Shown: piece after piece, positions 1 through 13,267 of the stretch
How positions within the stretch are numbered: position 1 is the stretch's first letter
Layout of the letters: every line of letters starts with the position of its first letter
IMG/VR virus record: IMGVR_UViG_3300025093_000120
Span: 1-23,794 of that record
Strand: one strand, 5' to 3'
From: a virus
Length of the DNA: 23,794 nt
The notes under the pieces: model-generated
Seen by the model: only the letters and a program-made list of their open reading frames with translations
What the model was told of the DNA's origin: nothing
Databases searched by the model: none
Position numbers and translations under genes: made by a program

Positions 1-2086
1 CAGGACAATTATTTCTTATTATATCTGTTACTGTTTGTTCATCTGAACAATTAAATTTAAAGTTGTCTAAATAGATATCGTATGTACAACAACAATTTAA
101 TCCAGATGTAAACTGTAAAGCTACATTATATTCTGTTGAACCTGTTGTTAAACTTACTTGTGTACTAATATCAAACCAAGTTTCTAACTCTGTAAATGTT
201 ATTGGTTCAGATGATTGTATTATTTCATTATTTTTATCTTTAACCACTAAAACCGCTTCAATTGGGTTCGCTGGGTTATAACAACAAGGTTCTCCGTTAT
301 TAACTAAGTCTTCATCGTTATTTAAATTAATATCAGTATTATTATCTTCTCTATTCCCACTATTTACAGGAGGTTGTGTAGTTGAATTGTAATCTATCAA
401 ATTATTGTTTTCATCAAATTCCAATAAACAAGGTTCATCGTCCCCGTCAACAATAATAACATCATCATCACTAGTATCTATTTCAACACAAGGATTTTCA
501 GGTATACCAAAATAAAAAGAAACGGACACATCTAATGGTTGGTCACACTCTGGTATTATAGGTTCCCTGTTTAAATTAAATTCTAGTGGTAAACATGGAT
601 TTGGGTCTTTGGAGTAACATCTTGTTTGACCATCAAAATTTTCATAAGTCCATGGTAAATTATTTTCATTAGCTATTTTAAGACAACAAGTTTCACTTAT
701 ATCACCCCCATTAAAGGTTACCACACTTACTTGTTGGTTAAACGAATCTGTTGTTGTTGTAACACTTAAATCAGTTAAAGAAAGTGTACACTCTTCTTGT
801 GGTAAACAATAACAAACACCATCATCAAAAAACCCACCTAATTCAGTACATTTTTCTGAAGTAATTTGTACATAACTAGAATTAGTATTATTTACTGTTT
901 GATTTTCTTGGTCTACAACTCCTTGGCTTTGCTGGTAACAAACGTAAAAACCACCTGTTGTAAATAGTATATTTGATATTAAAATTCTAGCTTGCGTAGA
1001 ATCGGATATACCATCCCCATCATTATCATTAGGGTTAAATAAATTGTTTACAACAAAATTAGCATCATCTAAAGATAAACCTAAATTAGTTAAAAAGGTT
1101 ACATTTAAAATTAAATCTCTGCCTTTTAATGTTGAAGCGATTGAAACAAATAAATCTACGGTTTTTACACAATCACAAAACTCTATTAATTGTTGTTCTA
1201 CGTCACAAAGACAAGCTGAAACTTCTTCACCAAAATCATTAGTGATTGTTAAAAAATCTGAATTTTGTAACTGATTACAACAACTACCGTTTATTATTGG
1301 TTCTCCTGTTATTTGGTCAACATAAAAACTACCACTTGTGAATGTAGTTTGTCCTGGTTCTGGATTTTGTGTTATAACATTAACCAACAAATCCCATAAA
1401 TCTTGGTCTACATCTTGTAAAGAAGCTCCGTTTAATGTACTATATAAATTATCCCACCATGCAAAATTATCACAATCAATACATATAACACGACTTTGTA
1501 ATTCAGCTACAGATATTGTACCATTAATAACACTTTCACATAGTCCCGTATCTTCAAAACTACCAATTTGGATACATTGTCCAAGGTCACTATCATAGTC
1601 TGTTGGACCATAACCTAAATCTTCAGTACAACACCCTTCAGGTATTGGTTGGTTACCATTTGTTATTGTTCCGTCAGCGTTTAATACAGGTACTATGTTT
1701 TCACAAGGATTAGGTGGTACTGGGTCTGTATTTGGGTCAGAAGTCCCTCCACCAGGGTTAAATGTGGGTGGGTCTTTAATTGTTTCTGCCTCTAGGTCTA
1801 TACCTCCAGTTCCGCCACCAGTATTATCGTACTGACAACAATTAGAGCAAGGTATAACATAAAAAGGGTCGTAATTGTTTGCTTGTGGGTCCATACAACC
1901 AGTTACTGCAGCAATGGTATATGTACAACAACCATTAGTGTAAACCCCACCTAAATCAGGTTGTGGTGATGCTCCAAAGACAAAGTCTGGACACCAAGAA
2001 TTTGCTGCATAGTTGGTGTTACTAGCTCTTGGGTCTAAACAACCATCAATTTTATCTATACCTACTTCTTCTGCTCCTTGTGCCAT
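1..2086 (-). CDS. Cys-rich tail/baseplate structural protein, C-terminus beyond the window
   Basis: The reading frame is open from an ATG at 2084-2086 to the left edge (695 complete codons, no stop), so the 3' end is missing. The translation holds about 40 cysteines, many as pairs: CC at residues 53-54, 83-84, 152-153, 269-270, 467-468, 601-602, and CCC at 665-667. Two GCxDP motifs open the protein (residues 15-19 GCLDP and 63-67 GCMDP followed by QANNY), resembling the GCTDPxAxNY motif of secreted Bacteroidetes proteins. An Asp-rich loop, NDNDGDGISD (residues 353-362), looks like a thrombospondin type 3/EF-hand calcium site. There is no signal peptide or membrane segment. It starts 16 bp after the 1397-aa protein, behind the A/T-rich leader AAAAATATATAA, and is the last visible gene of the baseplate operon. 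I do not recognise a named family. A host-facing tail fibre or baseplate decoration role is inferred from position and composition. Confidence 0.85.
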   Translation of the reverse strand, partial: MAQGAEEVGIDKIDGCLDPRASNTNYAANSWCPDFVFGASPQPDLGGVYTNGCCTYTIAAVTGCMDPQANNYDPFYVIPCSNCCQYDNTGGGTGGIDLEAETIKDPPTFNPGGGTSDPNTDPVPPNPCENIVPVLNADGTITNGNQPIPEGCCTEDLGYGPTDYDSDLGQCIQIGSFEDTGLCESVINGTISVAELQSRVICIDCDNFAWWDNLYSTLNGASLQDVDQDLWDLLVNVITQNPEPGQTTFTSGSFYVDQITGEPIINGSCCNQLQNSDFLTITNDFGEEVSACLCDVEQQLIEFCDCVKTVDLFVSIASTLKGRDLILNVTFLTNLGLSLDDANFVVNNLFNPNDNDGDGISDSTQARILISNILFTTGGFYVCYQQSQGVVDQENQTVNNTNSSYVQITSEKCTELGGFFDDGVCYCLPQEECTLSLTDLSVTTTTDSFNQQVSVVTFNGGDISETCCLKIANENNLPWTYENFDGQTRCYSKDPNPCLPLEFNLNREPIIPECDQPLDVSVSFYFGIPENPCVEIDTSDDDVIIVDGDDEPCLLEFDENNNLIDYNSTTQPPVNSGNREDNNTDINLNNDEDLVNNGEPCCYNPANPIEAVLVVKDKNNEIIQSSEPITFTELETWFDISTQVSLTTGSTEYNVALQFTSGLNCCCTYDIYLDNFKFNCSDEQTVTDIIRNNCP

Positions 2087-2102: not shown

Positions 2103-5100
2103 TTATTGTAGATAACAACCTCTGTCATCATTTGACCATGTTATTTTAGGATTACCATTTTGAGTCGCTAAGAAATTACAACATTCCTCACTCAATTGGT
2201 TACCGTTTGAGTCTACGTATGTTAATACAGGTGAGCCACCAAAAATTATTTCTTGTATTACATAATTACCATCTACAAAAGGTGGACACTGATAACACCC
2301 TATTGTTAAACTATTAGTAGGGTCGTTAGTTGTTTGGTAAAAATAACCCCCATTTTCACAACATTCTTGGTCGACCATTTGTCCATCAATTGTTGTTACT
2401 GTGTTTGCCGCGACATCAACAACTAAGTTATTTGGGTTACATCTAGTACATAAATTTATAGACAATAGGTCTCCTGATTCTAATTGTAATAATACTTCTT
2501 GTGATGAAAAACCAACTTGTGTACCGTATTTTTGACAACAATTTTCAGATAAATAACTACCATTACTATCTGTTAAATATATTATCGTTGTACCATTATC
2601 TGTTGTACCTGAAGTTTCATTAATAACTCTAGGGCAATCAAAACAAGCCCCTCTACTAATATTATTATTAATTAAATAATTTTGGATTAAAGGGCTATCA
2701 GGTATGATATCTACTGTACCATCTAATCTAAATAATTGTGTGCTAATAGTTCCAAAATAATAACCTAAACTTTCACAACAATTTTGGTCTAACGGTTCAA
2801 AATTATTTTCATCTACTTTTTGTGTTTCGTCTAATGGTGTACCAACAATGGTATTATATAAATTAGTTACCAATTCACGATTACAATTATCAGTTTCTAC
2901 TATTAACTCACATAGTTGTAGGTTATTATTCCAAGTACCCCCTCTTAATTCACAACAATCTTTATTTTGTAATACTTGGTTACCAATCATATAAACACAC
3001 TTTCCTTGTTGGAAATAAGTATCAAATGTGTTTAATAGTAGTTGTTGTGCCTCATCAACATCAAAACCATTATAACCATAAGTGGTAGCTAAATTTATTA
3101 TACCATTATTATCCAATTGTAAGTTATTTAAATACGCTTGTGAGTCACAAACAATTATTAAAGAACTTTCAGGTGGACACCACCAACAATAATAAGCGTT
3201 ATCATTTTCTTCTCTTCCTTGTCCACCAGTATCGGTTGCGTTGGGAAATAAAGGCACTAACTCAAACTCTCCTTCTTTACCAAGTGGTGTTGACTCACTA
3301 CCTCTTGATGAGGTTGTAGGTGGTTCTTGATTACAATTAGTACAAACTTGGAAATAGTTATCACCACTATTATAAGGATAAACTTTCATCTGAAAAGTAT
3401 ATACCCCAGCTTCTGTTATTACAATTTGAAAAGTGTCGGTTTGGTAAGGGTTTAAGAAGGAGTTATAATATGTGTTTGGTGTTGGTAGAGCTGGGTTAGT
3501 AGAAGAAATTAATTGTAAAGTATAGTTAATACCATCTTGTAAAACTGTACCGGCCGCAACTGTACCAACAATACCACCTAAAGGACCTTTAGTTGTTAAA
3601 TCAAGTACTGTTGGGTTTGCTGTTGTAGCGTTTGAGGCATCTATTTGAAATTCTAATGTAGCGGGAACTGGGTCACCAGCAACCCAATCTGTTTGTGGTA
3701 CATCTTCTATTAAAATACAACTACCGTTGGTATCGGTTGAGAAAGTACCTCCAACACCATTTATTACACCATCTGTTGTTAATTGACAACTTTGTGGTGT
3801 GTCACTTCCTGTGTCTCCAGGTAATGTTATTATGGTACCATCACCATCACCCCCAGTTCCATCACCACCGGTGTTACTACCTGTTCCATCACCAACAACC
3901 CCACCACCTGGTGTTACAGGTTCATCTGAACCTAAATAACAACCTATGGTTGAATTCCATGATACGCCGTTTTGTTGGTTGAACCCACCTAATAAAGAAT
4001 ACTCATAACAACATTGTTGTGTTAAATAATTATTAGTATTTGTACCGTCTTGACTACCAGCTAAAACTAAGATATACCCGTCATTTGGTATTACATCATA
4101 CTCTTCAGGACAACCATCACCAGTATTGTCAGTGTTGTCATTTTGTATTGGTAAAGTCGGTAACCAATAATAGTCACAACACTCTTCTATATTATGTGGT
4201 ATTAAACCACCATTTATATCGTTAGGGTTATTTACATAAATTACACCGTCTTCACCAAATAAAGCTTCAGGTGGACACCCATCACATAAAGTGGATTCAC
4301 CCGCTTGAAAGGTTATTCTTAATGAATATGTATCACCACTATCTCTAACATTTGTAGGTCCACTCTCAGTCCCAAATTCTACTATTCCAGCTGAAATAAC
4401 ATTTATGTTATCGGTAGGGTTAATAAAAAAGTCTGGTACGTCTCCTTGGTCATAGTAAGAAAAAGCAATCCCATTTGAATCGGGGGTAAATGTACCATCA
4501 TTATATTCTGTAAAGTAATTTTCTGTTAGTATTTCGGTTGTATTAACATTTACTGATGGTTGGAAATCATCAACGAAACACCTAAATTTATCCCAATACC
4601 TTTGTCCATAATCATATGGCCCGTAATGTGGATTATTCCCCGTTGTGATTTCATTACCCCCATTATACCAAAAACCGTCATTTTGAAACCAAAAAGTTTC
4701 AGTGTTTGTTGGTACTCTAGGAAAACCATAATCATCAAAGGGAAAGTTATTACGATTTAAATCAAAATAACTGGCTCCGAATAAAGTATTAAATTGTCTC
4801 CTAACCTCAAGTAAATCTAATTTATTATTAGCTAAATAAACTCTTTCGTCCATACTAACTAAAGAACTATTTATACCAAATAATTGCATAAAGAATTCTA
4901 ATACTTTTCTTGTACCTTTTGACCTAAATAACCACCAAGCATTTATAACCAATCTTCTCCATAGCTCAACGTCTATTTGATTGGGTGATAATTCTCTTGA
5001 GTATCCTTGGAATTGTGGGTCGTCTCCTTCGTCATTATTTGTTAAAATATCTATACCATCATTAATTGTTAGTAATACGTCAAAACCTAAAGTTTTGGCC

Positions 5101-6296
5101 ATTATTTTAATTAAACTATCCGCGGTATTATCTTTTTTATTATAAGTTACAACATTAGCAAAAGATATACCGTCAATATATTTTTTAACAACATCAAATT
5201 CAGCACCATAAATTGTTAATAATTTATAAACCCTTCTACCAGTATTGTCAGTCCCATCACCCTCCGTATCATATTCTATTATGGAGCTTGAGACTAATCT
5301 TCTTGTCATTAAATTAGTTTGGTTTTCATCGTATAGAAGAGAAACATTAAATAAGTTTTCAACATAATCCGAATAACTAGGTGTGTTTATATCTAAATTA
5401 TAACCATCTGTTGTAGGCCAAGTAAAATTTTTAGTAGTAAAACCGATTGCTCCATCATTATACTCTACGGGTACATCAATAATGTACGTGTATTTAGGTG
5501 TTGTTAATCTGTTTAACAACATATTTTGTAAATCAGTTAAATTATTAAAGAAAAAATCTCTTATTGGTTTTACTGGTTTTATGTGAAAAGTTTCTTGACC
5601 GAAAGTAGCTCCAGATAAAGAAGGGAAAGGGTTACCAACAATTTCTAAATATATATAATTATCGTTACTAGTAGAGCCTGTTATGTTTTGGATTTTGAAT
5701 TCATTGCCTTCAATAGATAAAATATAATCACTGATACTAGAGATAATACTTTTATCACCAAAAGAGGTATCATTATAATTTAATCCATATGGATTATTTA
5801 TACCAACTATCGGTACTTTAAAATAAGATATTTTAGATTCATTATTGTAACTAAAATCTAATACTGTATTAACACTACTTGGTAGTGAAGGTAAAGGGAC
5901 GGTAGGTATTGGTGAAATGTATAAAGAAGCCGGCCATTTTACAATTATATCTTGTAATTCTGATTCTAATAATTTCGAAAAACTACCAAAATAAACATAC
6001 TGTGAAACTTTAGTGGTATCAAAATTTAATTTAACAAATATGTTGTTGCTATTTACATTATCTAACTCTTGTTCTGTTATATTTAAATTATCAAGACAAT
6101 AATATTCTGACCATTCACCTAACGTGAAGTCTTTTGATACTCTCCCACTAAAATTACTTGTTATTTCAAAATTACCTAAAGTAAAAAAAGCGTTGGGGCT
6201 AGTGAATTGATTACCCACTAAATTAGGTGCAAAATCACCCTCTCTTAATTTATAAGCGTCTGTTAATGAACCAGGTACTACTTTTCTTACTGCCAT
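2103..6296 (-). CDS. Giant baseplate wedge/tail protein I-like protein fused to Cys-rich repeat modules (1397 aa)
   Basis: The ATG at 6294-6296 is preceded by an A/T-rich leader; the stop is at 2103. Residues about 360-480 (IYGAEFDVV, then LWRRLVINAWWLFRSKGTRK and VLEFFMQLFG) resemble the helical core of phage tail protein I/baseplate wedge adaptors, where a 'KGT...L..LG' helix is typical; this similarity is judged by eye. Residues 500-670 are rich in aromatic residues and look beta-structured. From residue 671 on the protein changes character: CC pairs at 706, 762, 1114, 1173, 1253, 1312 and 1372, most preceded by a CxxC or a single Cys 26-35 residues earlier. A Gly/Asp-rich linker (about 796-820) and a beta-like domain (about 835-985) interrupt the series. 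It lies between a 289-aa structural protein and another Cys-rich gene in the baseplate operon. The N-terminal part probably joins the baseplate and the C-terminal part probably faces outward; both are inference. Confidence 0.85.
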   Translation of the reverse strand: MAVRKVVPGSLTDAYKLREGDFAPNLVGNQFTSPNAFFTLGNFEITSNFSGRVSKDFTLGEWSEYYCLDNLNITEQELDNVNSNNIFVKLNFDTTKVSQYVYFGSFSKLLESELQDIIVKWPASLYISPIPTVPLPSLPSSVNTVLDFSYNNESKISYFKVPIVGINNPYGLNYNDTSFGDKSIISSISDYILSIEGNEFKIQNITGSTSNDNYIYLEIVGNPFPSLSGATFGQETFHIKPVKPIRDFFFNNLTDLQNMLLNRLTTPKYTYIIDVPVEYNDGAIGFTTKNFTWPTTDGYNLDINTPSYSDYVENLFNVSLLYDENQTNLMTRRLVSSSIIEYDTEGDGTDNTGRRVYKLLTIYGAEFDVVKKYIDGISFANVVTYNKKDNTADSLIKIMAKTLGFDVLLTINDGIDILTNNDEGDDPQFQGYSRELSPNQIDVELWRRLVINAWWLFRSKGTRKVLEFFMQLFGINSSLVSMDERVYLANNKLDLLEVRRQFNTLFGASYFDLNRNNFPFDDYGFPRVPTNTETFWFQNDGFWYNGGNEITTGNNPHYGPYDYGQRYWDKFRCFVDDFQPSVNVNTTEILTENYFTEYNDGTFTPDSNGIAFSYYDQGDVPDFFINPTDNINVISAGIVEFGTESGPTNVRDSGDTYSLRITFQAGESTLCDGCPPEALFGEDGVIYVNNPNDINGGLIPHNIEECCDYYWLPTLPIQNDNTDNTGDGCPEEYDVIPNDGYILVLAGSQDGTNTNNYLTQQCCYEYSLLGGFNQQNGVSWNSTIGCYLGSDEPVTPGGGVVGDGTGSNTGGDGTGGDGDGTIITLPGDTGSDTPQSCQLTTDGVINGVGGTFSTDTNGSCILIEDVPQTDWVAGDPVPATLEFQIDASNATTANPTVLDLTTKGPLGGIVGTVAAGTVLQDGINYTLQLISSTNPALPTPNTYYNSFLNPYQTDTFQIVITEAGVYTFQMKVYPYNSGDNYFQVCTNCNQEPPTTSSRGSESTPLGKEGEFELVPLFPNATDTGGQGREENDNAYYCWWCPPESSLIIVCDSQAYLNNLQLDNNGIINLATTYGYNGFDVDEAQQLLLNTFDTYFQQGKCVYMIGNQVLQNKDCCELRGGTWNNNLQLCELIVETDNCNRELVTNLYNTIVGTPLDETQKVDENNFEPLDQNCCESLGYYFGTISTQLFRLDGTVDIIPDSPLIQNYLINNNISRGACFDCPRVINETSGTTDNGTTIIYLTDSNGSYLSENCCQKYGTQVGFSSQEVLLQLESGDLLSINLCTRCNPNNLVVDVAANTVTTIDGQMVDQECCENGGYFYQTTNDPTNSLTIGCYQCPPFVDGNYVIQEIIFGGSPVLTYVDSNGNQLSEECCNFLATQNGNPKITWSNDDRGCYLQ
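2106..4286 (-). repeat. Protein-level repeat array of CxxC...CC modules
   Basis: This covers residues 671-1397 of the 1397-aa protein. CC pairs fall at residues 706, 762, 1114, 1173, 1253, 1312 and 1372, giving steps of 56, then 59, 80, 59 and 60 within the two runs. The consensus I read is CxxCP, about 26-35 residues, an Asp/Gly turn (DSNGSYLS, DSNGNQLS, TIDGQMVD), [ENQ]CC, often Gly or aromatic residues, a Trp or aromatic, and a closing Cys before the next unit. CxxC pairs are visible at 671/674, 1037/1040, 1218/1221, 1283/1286 and 1334/1337. The copies are divergent in protein and DNA, so they are old duplications rather than recent slippage. Confidence 0.75.
3837..3911 (-). repeat. Low-complexity Gly/Asp/Thr linker coding segment
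   Basis: Residues about 796-820 of the 1397-aa protein consist almost wholly of Gly, Asp, Thr, Val, Ser and Asn (for example GGDGTGGDGDG). The plus strand shows repeated TTCCATCACC units here. It probably forms a flexible linker between a Cys-rich segment and the beta-like domain that follows. Such tracts expand and contract easily by slippage. Confidence 0.7.
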
Positions 6297-7646: not shown

Positions 7647-8489
7647 TTAATTATCTGGTATGCAATAAAATTGCCATGTTGTATTATATGTTGGGTTACC
7701 ATTTTCATCGTCAGGTCCTTGTATTGTTGTATACTTAACAACTGGGAATATCGCACTTACTCCTGAACTTCCACAGCCACAATCTTGTCCTGTACAATCA
7801 AAATCATTATCTGTACAATCTGAAGGTAAAAGTAACCTTAAATTATCAGTAGGGTCGGGGCAACAAGTAGTACTAGGGGTACAACCATTAGGTGTACAGT
7901 TTACTTGGTTTGGATAAGACGAACCACATGATGCGTAAACCCCTCTACACCATTCATCAGCAGCTATAGCCATATCAGTAATTGTTGGTATAGTGGAAAC
8001 ATAACCAGTACTCATTCTATAACAACCACCAGATAAAGTACCACCACCAGAACCTCCTGAACCTGAAGAACCACCCCCACTGAAACCATAATCACAACAA
8101 CAATCTATTGTCGCTGTTGGGCTATAGTTAACAGCATTAGGGTCTGTACAACCAATTATTTCTAAGTCTGATTCATCTATAATAGTAATATCACTACCCA
8201 AACCATTACCATAATCACTTCCAGTAAAAGAAGATATATTTATTTCTCCACCATCATTAGCACCATCATTACTTAAATCCCAAAAGTTTTCTAAATCTAT
8301 TGTTTCTATATCTTCCTCTTCTTGGTAATCTGTATATACACCTAAATCTTTTACACTTTGTTTTAATAAAACAGAAACATATAAATTATCTTTATTTAAA
8401 TAAGCAATCGTATCATCAATACCATCATTATTAGTATCTAATGGGGTTAATTGTTTTTTTATTTTTATTTTTCTTATATATTTTTCCAC
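7647..8489 (-). CDS. Cys-rich structural protein with GCTDPxAxNY motif and Gly/Ser linker (280 aa)
   Basis: The start is a GTG at 8487-8489 that overlaps the TAG stop of the upstream gene by one base (TAGTG), which suggests translational coupling; no ATG lies near the N-terminus, so GTG is the best choice. Residues 18-26 (DTNNDGIDD) form a thrombospondin type 3/EF-hand-like calcium loop. Residues 113-130 (GCTDPNAVNYSPTATIDC, followed by CC) match the GCTDPxAxNYxxxA motif common in secreted Bacteroidetes proteins. Residues 136-150 are a pure Gly/Ser/Thr linker. The remainder carries about 14 cysteines, including CC at 209-210 and CGC at 237-239. There is no signal peptide. It is a likely externally exposed baseplate or fibre part; the exact role is unknown. 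Confidence 0.82.
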   Translation of the reverse strand: MEKYIRKIKIKKQLTPLDTNNDGIDDTIAYLNKDNLYVSVLLKQSVKDLGVYTDYQEEEDIETIDLENFWDLSNDGANDGGEINISSFTGSDYGNGLGSDITIIDESDLEIIGCTDPNAVNYSPTATIDCCCDYGFSGGGSSGSGGSGGGTLSGGCYRMSTGYVSTIPTITDMAIAADEWCRGVYASCGSSYPNQVNCTPNGCTPSTTCCPDPTDNLRLLLPSDCTDNDFDCTGQDCGCGSSGVSAIFPVVKYTTIQGPDDENGNPTYNTTWQFYCIPDN

Positions 8490-11058: not shown

Positions 11059-12882
11059 TTATTTTTTTATTCTAACCTTTATGTCTTTATTTGGGAACCT
11101 TATTTGGAACATTGAGTCGTATTCAGCAAATAAAGCAAAATCTTCGGTTAAGTTTATTTGGAATGTTGAGAAGTCTACTATATCTTGGCTTGTAACATTT
11201 AATGAGTATTGTCCACCATTTTTATTAAAGACCTTAAAATCAATAACATTTAATACCCCACCAACATTATTTACGTTTTCTATTAATTGGGATAAATATA
11301 TATTGTCACCCATATCCCATTTATTAACATTAAAGTAATCTTTAACAGAACTAATTATACCAGTAACAACTTCCCCTTCTGTAAAAGATTTATCGACAAA
11401 CACATCAATATCAAAAGCTAAATCAAAAACTTTACCATCTCTAACTAAAACATAATCATTTATCATTCTGTAATCTGCTAACCAAGAAGAAATGTTTTCT
11501 TTGAGGGTGTTTGTAGATTGGTTAGTTAGTTTTCCAGTGTTATCAACACCTATCACAGCTATATCTATTTTATTTTGGTTTTCAGAAACGTTATTTCTAA
11601 AAGGTATACCAAAAGTACCTGGCATTTTATCTATTAAAACAACATAATCTTTTAGTGTTACTGCTCGATTTTGAGAAGAAAAGTTATACCTAACCATTTT
11701 TTTGATTTGTTCTGTACTAGGAGCGTCACCACCACCAAAAGCTGGTACAGGATTATTAACGGATAAAGAATTTTTAACAGAATTATTTGTTTGTTGGTTA
11801 GGTCCGGTTACTGTCATCGTATAAAGTCCAGGACTTCTTAAAGTATTTGCTCCCACATTACCACTAGCTCCACCACCAGTTCTATATCTTATAAACATGG
11901 TATCACCTACTGTAGGTATCTCACCCATAGCTGTACTATTGATAAAGTCACCTATTCTTAATGTAAAATTATTATTAGCGTACTCTGTTAAAAGGTCTTG
12001 GTCGGCATTACCTGAACCAAAAGTTAATTTACATATACCTAAATCAGTATATTCTTTAATAAATCTTTTATTTGTTGAAACCCATTTACCTGGTTTTATA
12101 GACGTGTTATCTGATGTTCTTAATGGGTCTTCAATGAAAATTTTGTCTTCCATTAAAGAATCTAATTCATACCATCTTAAATCAGGGTCTTGGAATTGTG
12201 ATAGAGTTGGGTTTGATACTAAGTTAGTTCCAGGTAATGTTATAATTTGTTCTACCGATAAAACATTGGTTCCAGGTAGAAAAACCTCTAAAAAAGGTAT
12301 AGCGTCAGCTTGTGTTATAACTTTTTTAAATACGTTTGAGACTCCCGCTACAACGAATTCTCTTTTAACCAAGGTGTAACCTAATAATGTACCATTTGCA
12401 TTTAAGTTAGGTAAAACTAGTCTATTTGGTATCCCTCCTTTACTTAAAGGTTCCGAAAAGTCTATATCATCTAGTGTTTCAAAGGTTTGTCCACCACCAG
12501 CTACTTGTGCCCCAAATTTTAGTATTGGTGCGTACCTAATATCAAAAGTATCACCATTTACGGGTACATTAACTGAAAAATCAACTATAGATACTGCTGG
12601 TCTTTTACCAGGTACATTAAGACCCAGTGTTCTCGCAATATTTAATACAGATTTTCTTTCTTGAGCGAAATCTAATTGTGTTTCTTGGAACATCCTATCT
12701 GTATTATAAGATAACATGTCAGAAACTGCCGCGTTTAATTCAACCAACATGGTACCAATTGATGCGTCATTGAAGTCTTGGAATGTTTCTGGATAATATT
12801 TTTTAATAAAATTAAATAATTCTGTTCTTACGTCATTAAAGTTTCTAGCAAAATAACTAATTTTTTTACCTTGTACTGCCAT
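11059..12882 (-). CDS. 6: gp6-like baseplate wedge protein (baseplate J family)
   Basis: Baseplate J/gp6 proteins form the inner wedge ring that holds the T4-type baseplate together. The N-terminal region, residues about 34-75 (FQDFNDASIGTMLVELNAAV, then SDMLSYNTDRMFQETQLDFA), is the characteristic 'D....G..l....A...d...Y' helix of this family. A mid-protein Gly-rich segment (RTGGGASGNVGANTL) and the C-terminal region with KMVRYNFSSQNRAVTLKDYV and GDNIYLSQLIENVNNVGGV also fit baseplate J. Its 607 residues compare with 660 for T4 gp6. It starts at an ATG 1 bp after the gp25-like stop, the order gp25 then gp6 being usual in T4-like phages. Confidence in family is high; the gene number is by analogy. 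Confidence 0.88.
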   Translation of the reverse strand: MAVQGKKISYFARNFNDVRTELFNFIKKYYPETFQDFNDASIGTMLVELNAAVSDMLSYNTDRMFQETQLDFAQERKSVLNIARTLGLNVPGKRPAVSIVDFSVNVPVNGDTFDIRYAPILKFGAQVAGGGQTFETLDDIDFSEPLSKGGIPNRLVLPNLNANGTLLGYTLVKREFVVAGVSNVFKKVITQADAIPFLEVFLPGTNVLSVEQIITLPGTNLVSNPTLSQFQDPDLRWYELDSLMEDKIFIEDPLRTSDNTSIKPGKWVSTNKRFIKEYTDLGICKLTFGSGNADQDLLTEYANNNFTLRIGDFINSTAMGEIPTVGDTMFIRYRTGGGASGNVGANTLRSPGLYTMTVTGPNQQTNNSVKNSLSVNNPVPAFGGGDAPSTEQIKKMVRYNFSSQNRAVTLKDYVVLIDKMPGTFGIPFRNNVSENQNKIDIAVIGVDNTGKLTNQSTNTLKENISSWLADYRMINDYVLVRDGKVFDLAFDIDVFVDKSFTEGEVVTGIISSVKDYFNVNKWDMGDNIYLSQLIENVNNVGGVLNVIDFKVFNKNGGQYSLNVTSQDIVDFSTFQINLTEDFALFAEYDSMFQIRFPNKDIKVRIKK

Positions 12883-12883
12883 T

Positions 12884-13267
12884 TTATATTTCTATTTCTA
12901 TAAAGTCACTTCCAGAAAAAGCCGCTGTAGTTGCTTTGTAATCTAATCTTACTAAAGCTGCGTTTTCATTTCTATCTGACCTGTTTACTGTTATTTCTAA
13001 TATTGATAAGTTGGGTATAAATTCTTGTATAGCTGATTCAATTTCACCTTGTATTGATTTATGTACAATACCATCATTTTGTTCAAATAAATACTGCCTC
13101 AAGTTAACCCCAAAACTTGGTAAGTATAGTCTTTGGTTTTTTTCTGTTAATAATAAATGTAGTAAGTCTGCTTTAATAGCTCTTTGACTTTCTCTCTCCA
13201 TTTTTAAAAACTTACCTTTAAAGTCTTCCTCAAAGGGAAAAGATATGTTTATAAATTTTTCAGCCAT
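12884..13267 (-). CDS. 25: gp25-like baseplate wedge subunit
   Basis: The 127-aa length is near that of T4 gp25 (132 aa). Family features are visible: RAIKADLLHLLLTEKNQRLY (29-48) followed by LPSFGVNLRQYLFEQND (49-65), which is the conserved 'GeR.m.P.FG..l..llFe' core of the GPW/gp25 family, then QGEIESAIQEFIPNLSILEI (73-92), matching the helix and strand usually ending 'EPRI.v..v.v'. This protein helps form the baseplate wedge core with gp6 and triggers sheath assembly in related contractile systems. It is the first gene of the baseplate operon. Its ATG at 13265-13267 follows AATAAAAAGAA and lies 30 bp downstream of a candidate promoter. Confidence 0.9.
   Translation of the reverse strand: MAEKFINISFPFEEDFKGKFLKMERESQRAIKADLLHLLLTEKNQRLYLPSFGVNLRQYLFEQNDGIVHKSIQGEIESAIQEFIPNLSILEITVNRSDRNENAALVRLDYKATTAAFSGSDFIEIEI

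Follow-up and report, generated by a model that had tools for sequence, protein, structure and literature searches.

A repeated four-cysteine unit in a clade of uncultured phages, a probable building block of a modular tail appendage stalk

The window, i.e. the whole stretch of DNA analyzed here, comprises the 23,794 bases of the uncultured virus record IMGVR_UViG_3300025093_000120. Nearly all of its large open reading frames (ORFs) are located on the minus strand, and the gene order recalls that of T4-like phages. A UvsX-like recombinase, which matches the recombinase of Flavobacterium phage immuto at 41%, is encoded together with a gp32-like protein, a 5'-3' exonuclease, a DnaB-type helicase, and a B12-type ribonucleotide reductase. 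Next in order are gp25, a gp6-like wedge protein, five tail-region proteins, and finally two adjacent genes for the proteins termed A and B in this study. The features relevant here are as follows:

12884-13267, minus strand: gp25-family baseplate wedge protein (Pfam PF04965, E 1.7e-12)
11059-12882, minus strand: gp6-like baseplate wedge protein (over 100% of its length 27% identical to the immuto baseplate wedge protein, E 2e-49)
2103-6296, minus strand: protein A, 1397 aa, an N-terminal tail/baseplate-type domain plus a C-terminal array (ORF with full-length homologues)
4302-6296, minus strand: N-terminal domain of protein A, residues 1-665 (conserved to 28-32% identity in array-less phages; profile match to immuto_162)
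4110-4277, minus strand: unit 1, residues 674-729 (HMM i-E 6.8e-7; held-out profile 0.0016)
3939-4112, minus strand: unit 2, residues 729-786 (HMM i-E 2.8e-5; held-out profile 0.32, weak)
3189-3938, minus strand: variable segment, residues 787-1036 (in the alignment, it differs among close relatives)
2910-3188, minus strand: unit 3, residues 1037-1129 (helical insertion at residues 1050-1100, flanked by C1050 and C1100, which are lost together)
2643-2885, minus strand: unit 4, residues 1138-1218 (HMM, held-out HMM, AlphaFold)
2448-2636, minus strand: unit 5, residues 1221-1283 (HMM, held-out HMM, AlphaFold)
2295-2441, minus strand: unit 6, residues 1286-1334 (HMM, held-out HMM, AlphaFold)
2106-2288, minus strand: unit 7, residues 1337-1397 (HMM, held-out HMM, AlphaFold; end of the protein, no tip domain)
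2-2086, minus strand: protein B, at least 695 aa, running off the contig (5.8% Cys; at least three array-type units plus GCxDPxAxNY motifs)
1574-1705, minus strand: protein B unit, residues 128-171 (held-out i-E 0.0009)
1211-1474, minus strand: protein B unit with long insert, residues 205-292 (held-out i-E 0.07)
617-790, minus strand: protein B unit, residues 433-490 (held-out i-E 0.046)

Features of a T4-type baseplate region are present, namely the adjacent gp25 and gp6 homologues and, in relatives, a contractile sheath; tail-sheath matches were obtained in the contigs of three relatives, one of them above the family cut-off. Judged from this gene order, protein A is probably baseplate-associated. 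The first-pass annotation had named it a baseplate protein outright, and the neighborhood with the gp25-family and gp6-like wedge genes is in favor of this, whereas the N-terminal domain itself matched nothing in Pfam, and a profile comparison did not support T4 gp7 as a relative (hhalign probability 0.2). The N-terminal domain did match the uncharacterized immuto26A_162 (QQO91841.1) in a profile comparison (probability 91%, E 9.7e-7, 185 columns). This match covers the region of a conserved ELWRRLVINAWWLFRSKGTRKVLEFF motif, which presumably resembles tail protein I of P2-like phages. A fold search with the poor model of the N-terminal domain (pLDDT 61) yielded nothing usable.

Protein A contains 37 Cys residues in total. 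In its C-terminal part (residues 671-1397, window positions 4286-2106), recounting gave exactly the seven CC pairs described previously (at 706, 762, 1114, 1173, 1253, 1312, and 1372) with their spacings of 56, (352), 59, 80, 59, and 60 residues; CxxC motifs are located at 671, 985, 1037, 1218, 1283, and 1334. A CxxC or single Cys 26-35 residues ahead of the pair, also part of that description, is found for six of the seven pairs. For CC1114, the nearest preceding Cys is 14 residues away, and C1040 is likely the counterpart of the first Cys (C1) of the other units, with the helical insertion intervening. An Asp-Gly turn just before CC, as proposed, occurs in the majority of the units but is missing from some. 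The count of four Cys per unit also held: each unit consists of C1, the CC pair, and a last Cys, C4, which completes the four and had been overlooked, as had the units of protein B (positions 2-2086). The unit pattern can be written as C1-x(~27)-C2C3-x(~18)-C4, often followed by two residues and the next C1. In 230 units from 56 non-redundant ORFs, C1 and CC were separated by a median of 27 residues and CC and C4 by a median of 18, and the gap between C4 and the next C1 was most often two residues, counting cases with a Cys within eight residues. Units are roughly 40-90 residues long. Proline is preferred after C1; ahead of CC, L/I/V is followed by S/N/T, then E/Q, and then E/A/N/D, and behind CC there is a preference for G and an aromatic W/Y.

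For statistical evaluation, the C-terminal part was subjected to 20,000 residue shuffles, of which 0.015% contained at least seven CC pairs and none at least four spacings of 55-61 residues. With random CC placement, four spacings fell within one 5-residue bin in 0.05% of the cases. Furthermore, a held-out profile was trained on distant loci, with the window, L003, L004, and L006 excluded, and compared with a null of 200 shuffles in which every Cys was fixed in place. It scored 56.9 bits on the window array versus a shuffle maximum of 0.1, and 15.8 bits on protein B versus a shuffle maximum of -4.8. Since these scores far exceed those of the Cys-preserving shuffles, the units are alike beyond their Cys pattern. 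It is thereby confirmed that the seven CC pairs mark one repeated homologous unit.

Other Cys-rich sequences were observed in the same tail region. A second Cys-rich module with the pattern GC-x-D-P-x-A-x-N-Y-x-P-x-A, ending in DDGSC or CxxCCxY, is present in protein B (residues 15-84) and in a 280-aa ORF of the window (7647-8489, residues 113-132); it occurs clade-wide in 24 ORFs of the fetched loci, and we assume that this GCxDPxAxNY type resembles repeats of Bacteroidota surface proteins. A further large Cys-rich protein of about 1020-1050 aa with the motif CGPG...CC was found in the clade (L006:20683-23805, L072:12082-15150, and L078:11845-15000).

For protein A residues 1029-1397 (units 3-7), an AlphaFold model was generated with 17 homologues as input (mean pLDDT 85.3, pTM 0.52). 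All five modeled units were predicted with the same strand-helix-strand layout, in the order strands, a loop of the D-x-N-G type, a short helix, and two short strands with C4 in the last one. The predicted helices (1112-1117, 1171-1176, 1251-1256, 1310-1313, and 1370-1380) start two residues ahead of CC, which thus occupies helix positions 3-4. The combination of high local and low global confidence may be interpreted as beads without fixed mutual orientation, for which a pTM of 0.52 would be the expected value. The suggestion of a small modular repeat unit is therefore borne out by homology in the held-out profile together with the same predicted layout in five of five units, and the alternative outcome of the unit profile and model analysis, unrelated folds around the CC pairs, was not seen.

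The view that no named domain lies behind the pattern likewise stood up to the searches. In Pfam, PHROGs, NCBIfam, and PDB sequences, the array unit had no convincing relative, and Foldseek searches with the array model gave a best E of 0.56 (probability 0.02; 50 matches listed) against the PDB and a best E of 0.18 (top-hit probability below 0.1) against BFVD. Literature searches, covering few subscription journals, did not reveal any account of a repeat of this type. Judged by these collections, the array unit is a real homologous repeat domain that was previously unnamed. Its fold is likely novel; this falls short of proof because very small domains rarely reach strong E-values in Foldseek. 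Two weak hits to Prolamin_like (best E 0.0008, 2 of 18 members) were judged a match of the Cys pattern and rejected.

Two other explanations concern the nature of the unit itself. The CC spacing could be a composition accident of a Cys-rich tail without a common fold, as protein A is rich in Asn, Gly, and Thr as well as in Cys. Both the residue shuffles and the Cys-preserving profile test contradict this, as do the identical secondary structure around all five modeled CC pairs and the conservation of the units in distant phages, so we give this explanation practically no credence. Alternatively, the units could be divergent metazoan TB (TGF-beta binding) domains, with which they share the CCxxxGxxW...C look. 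The respective hit to PF00683, at residues 1098-1130 and with E 0.004 when the array fragment was searched, remained below the curated cut-off of 22.2 bits, with 15.1 bits for the whole protein and 17.4 bits for the array fragment, and occurred in one of the 18 homologues. Moreover, array units contain four Cys (six in unit 3 with its insertion), while TB domains have eight, and no TB structure was among the 50 Foldseek matches listed, where small domains score weakly in any case. A TB origin thus appears very improbable.

To determine the distribution of the array, IMG/VR was scanned for relatives, with the array and both proteins as queries and also with alignments of protein A; in alignments of protein B and of the divergent arrays, no part was sufficiently conserved for such a scan. 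In a tree of the N-terminal domain with 61 rows, all arrays fall within one supported clade of 37 rows. Protein A has at least three units in 24 of these rows, one or two in 8, and none in 5, with some unit-poor rows ending at contig ends or having their array encoded by the following ORF. No array is present in the sister set of 24 rows, whose A protein has a length of about 2400 aa when complete. Two array phages are represented by contigs of 318 and 380 kb. On the 380 kb contig (IMGVR_UViG_3300030102_006934; L022, L109), the genes of two A-type proteins are separated by about 225 kb, and two gp25 genes but one sheath were detected; either a jumbo phage with two baseplate modules or a chimeric assembly could account for this. 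No relative of protein A or the array was found in bacterial and archaeal genomes (84,980; two scans) by short-peptide-pattern scans, which distant relatives could escape. Also, 50,697 phage records gave no hit to protein A or a stand-alone array, and plasmids gave none. Within these collections, the array is limited to one clade of uncultured phages.

Each of the 23 array Cys columns was retained in the 18 homologues compared, provided that the respective unit was present and aligned well. The only clear loss within a unit was found in L003, which lacks C1050 and C1100 together; because of this joint absence, the two residues are probably bonded to each other, which would close the helical insertion in unit 3. 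C1286 is replaced in L078 and L081 where their arrays stop, which places the unit border such that C1 is assigned to the unit after it. C514 and C665 of protein B are jointly absent in 8 related rows and never singly. The pair losses may represent only one or two evolutionary events. An even conserved number of Cys per unit and pairwise loss fit the pattern of a disulfide-stabilized repeat domain. Previously, either a pair of disulfides or a single metal site formed by the four Cys had been considered; since Cys are lost in pairs, the alignments favor the disulfide option and disfavor a single four-Cys site. The Cys enrichment is specific: the array, protein B, and the 280-aa ORF reach 5-6% Cys, compared with 0-0.65% in the remaining tail proteins encoded by the window.

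Phage proteins are normally produced in a reducing cytoplasm, which is a problem for the disulfide reading. No Erv/Alr oxidase was detected, a weak test given that the Erv control matched nowhere, and a VKOR-type oxidase was absent. Oxidation after lysis would, hypothetically, be the simplest answer. Thioredoxin genes with an ordinary CGPC site were observed in 3 of 15 searched contigs (L138, L139, and L140), in two of them at a distance of about 15-19 kb on the downstream side of the array.

Analysis of the domain organization showed that unit 1 begins near residue 670-705 in nearly all array-bearing A proteins, directly after the N-terminal domain, and that the array order is conserved. In L076, the array is located on its own ORF (407 aa, six units) after a 692-aa protein A without units, and in L018 and L079 it is partly on a separate ORF. 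The protein stops 3-9 residues past the last unit in the window, L003, L004, L006, L012, L073, L076, and L114. Other relatives carry tips of 87-356 aa after the array, which belong to at least three related classes plus several singletons; in a Pfam search, none of the tips could be convincingly named. Close relatives in the N-terminal domain can have unlike tips (L081/L084 vs L082/L083; L085/L112 vs L078/L087). A 1995-aa ORF with 45 Cys and only two units found by regex lies downstream of a nearly array-less A homologue (L118:11070-17054) and perhaps represents another type of Cys-rich appendage.

With respect to chemistry and function, two further readings were weighed. If each unit were a zinc or iron site loaded in the host cytoplasm, the array would be a metal-stiffened rod. 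The four almost absolutely kept Cys per unit would suit such sites, metals are generally loaded under the reducing conditions that prevent disulfides, and no phage-borne thiol oxidase was found. Nevertheless, we consider metal sites unlikely: the Cys vanish in twos (C1050/C1100; C514/C665) and not in fours, albeit in few independent events, an adjacent Cys pair would be unusual in one tetrahedral site, and no zinc-finger or similar family matched. Somewhat less improbable, though still doubtful, is that the array itself is the receptor-binding or surface-adhesive part, in which many beads would each bind weakly and differ through their long loops. On both sides of CC, towards C1 and towards C4, the loops are indeed long and variable, and several phages, including that of the window, have no tip past the array. 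Against this, many phages possess separate tips that are unlike between close relatives, which suits a carrier role of the array, and the order of the array is conserved.

Taking these data together, we regard it as reasonably probable that the seven-copy four-Cys array serves as the stalk of a tail appendage, with a modular design, disulfides as staples, and an anchor of the baseplate type. Each unit would begin with strands and a loop, often of the form [DN]-x-[NG]-G, continue with a short helix that has CC at its start, and finish with two strands, at the end of which C4 is located. Two disulfides among C1, the CC pair, and C4 most likely close the unit into a rigid bead, and the C4-x-x-C1 link would hold neighboring beads close. 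Attached to the N-terminal tail/baseplate-type domain, the array together with the similar units of protein B most likely forms a stalk reaching out from the baseplate, which in many relatives would bear an exchangeable tip at the C-terminus, the probable site of host contact.

To our knowledge, extended repeat arrays rich in disulfides are characteristic of proteins secreted by animals, whereas phage virions are not known for them. We tentatively propose, with somewhat less than even confidence, that the four-Cys beads constitute a new fold family used throughout the clade, including the phages with contigs of 318 and 380 kb, in which two adjacent tail genes encode covalently stapled appendages with exchangeable tips. 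Oxidation would occur only once the virion leaves the reducing cytoplasm, and the appendage would stiffen on release. If confirmed, this would provide a new building block of phage tail appendages, a natural anchor-shaft-tip system with the shaft as modular scaffold, and a marker linking uncultured large phages through their tail architecture. It also raises the testable question of when and how virion cysteines oxidize.

The closest named counterparts are related tail proteins in three phage records. In Flavobacterium phage vB_FspM_immuto, the gene of immuto26A_162 is located shortly after the gp25 and gp6-like genes, as is that of protein A in the window, and WWT39511.1 of Microcystis phage Mel-JY01 and the homologue in the uncultured phage LR756508 both match immuto_162. 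Unlike protein A, the tail proteins of these three phages contain no CC pair and no unit. In the sister clade (L025-L067), the homologues of about 2400 aa occupy the same gene-order position with an N-terminal domain 28-32% identical to that of protein A, but their C-terminal part of about 1800 aa is without any CC. This part, present in place of the array, had no Pfam match. The TB domain of fibrillin and LTBP (PF00683) resembles the array unit in being a Cys-rich bead of extended extracellular fibers and, in sequence look only, in CC followed by G-x-x-W and C; it differs in its eight Cys and its metazoan origin. Anchor, shaft, and swappable tip represent the layout of host-contact appendages, and protein A with its array-bearing relatives resembles modular phage tail fibers in the conserved anchor, repeated shaft, and exchangeable tip. 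Phage fiber shafts known to us are beta-helical or coiled-coil trimers or consist of Ig-like domains, and none is made of four-Cys beads. The appendage would thus be known in kind, with the four-Cys building block as its new part.
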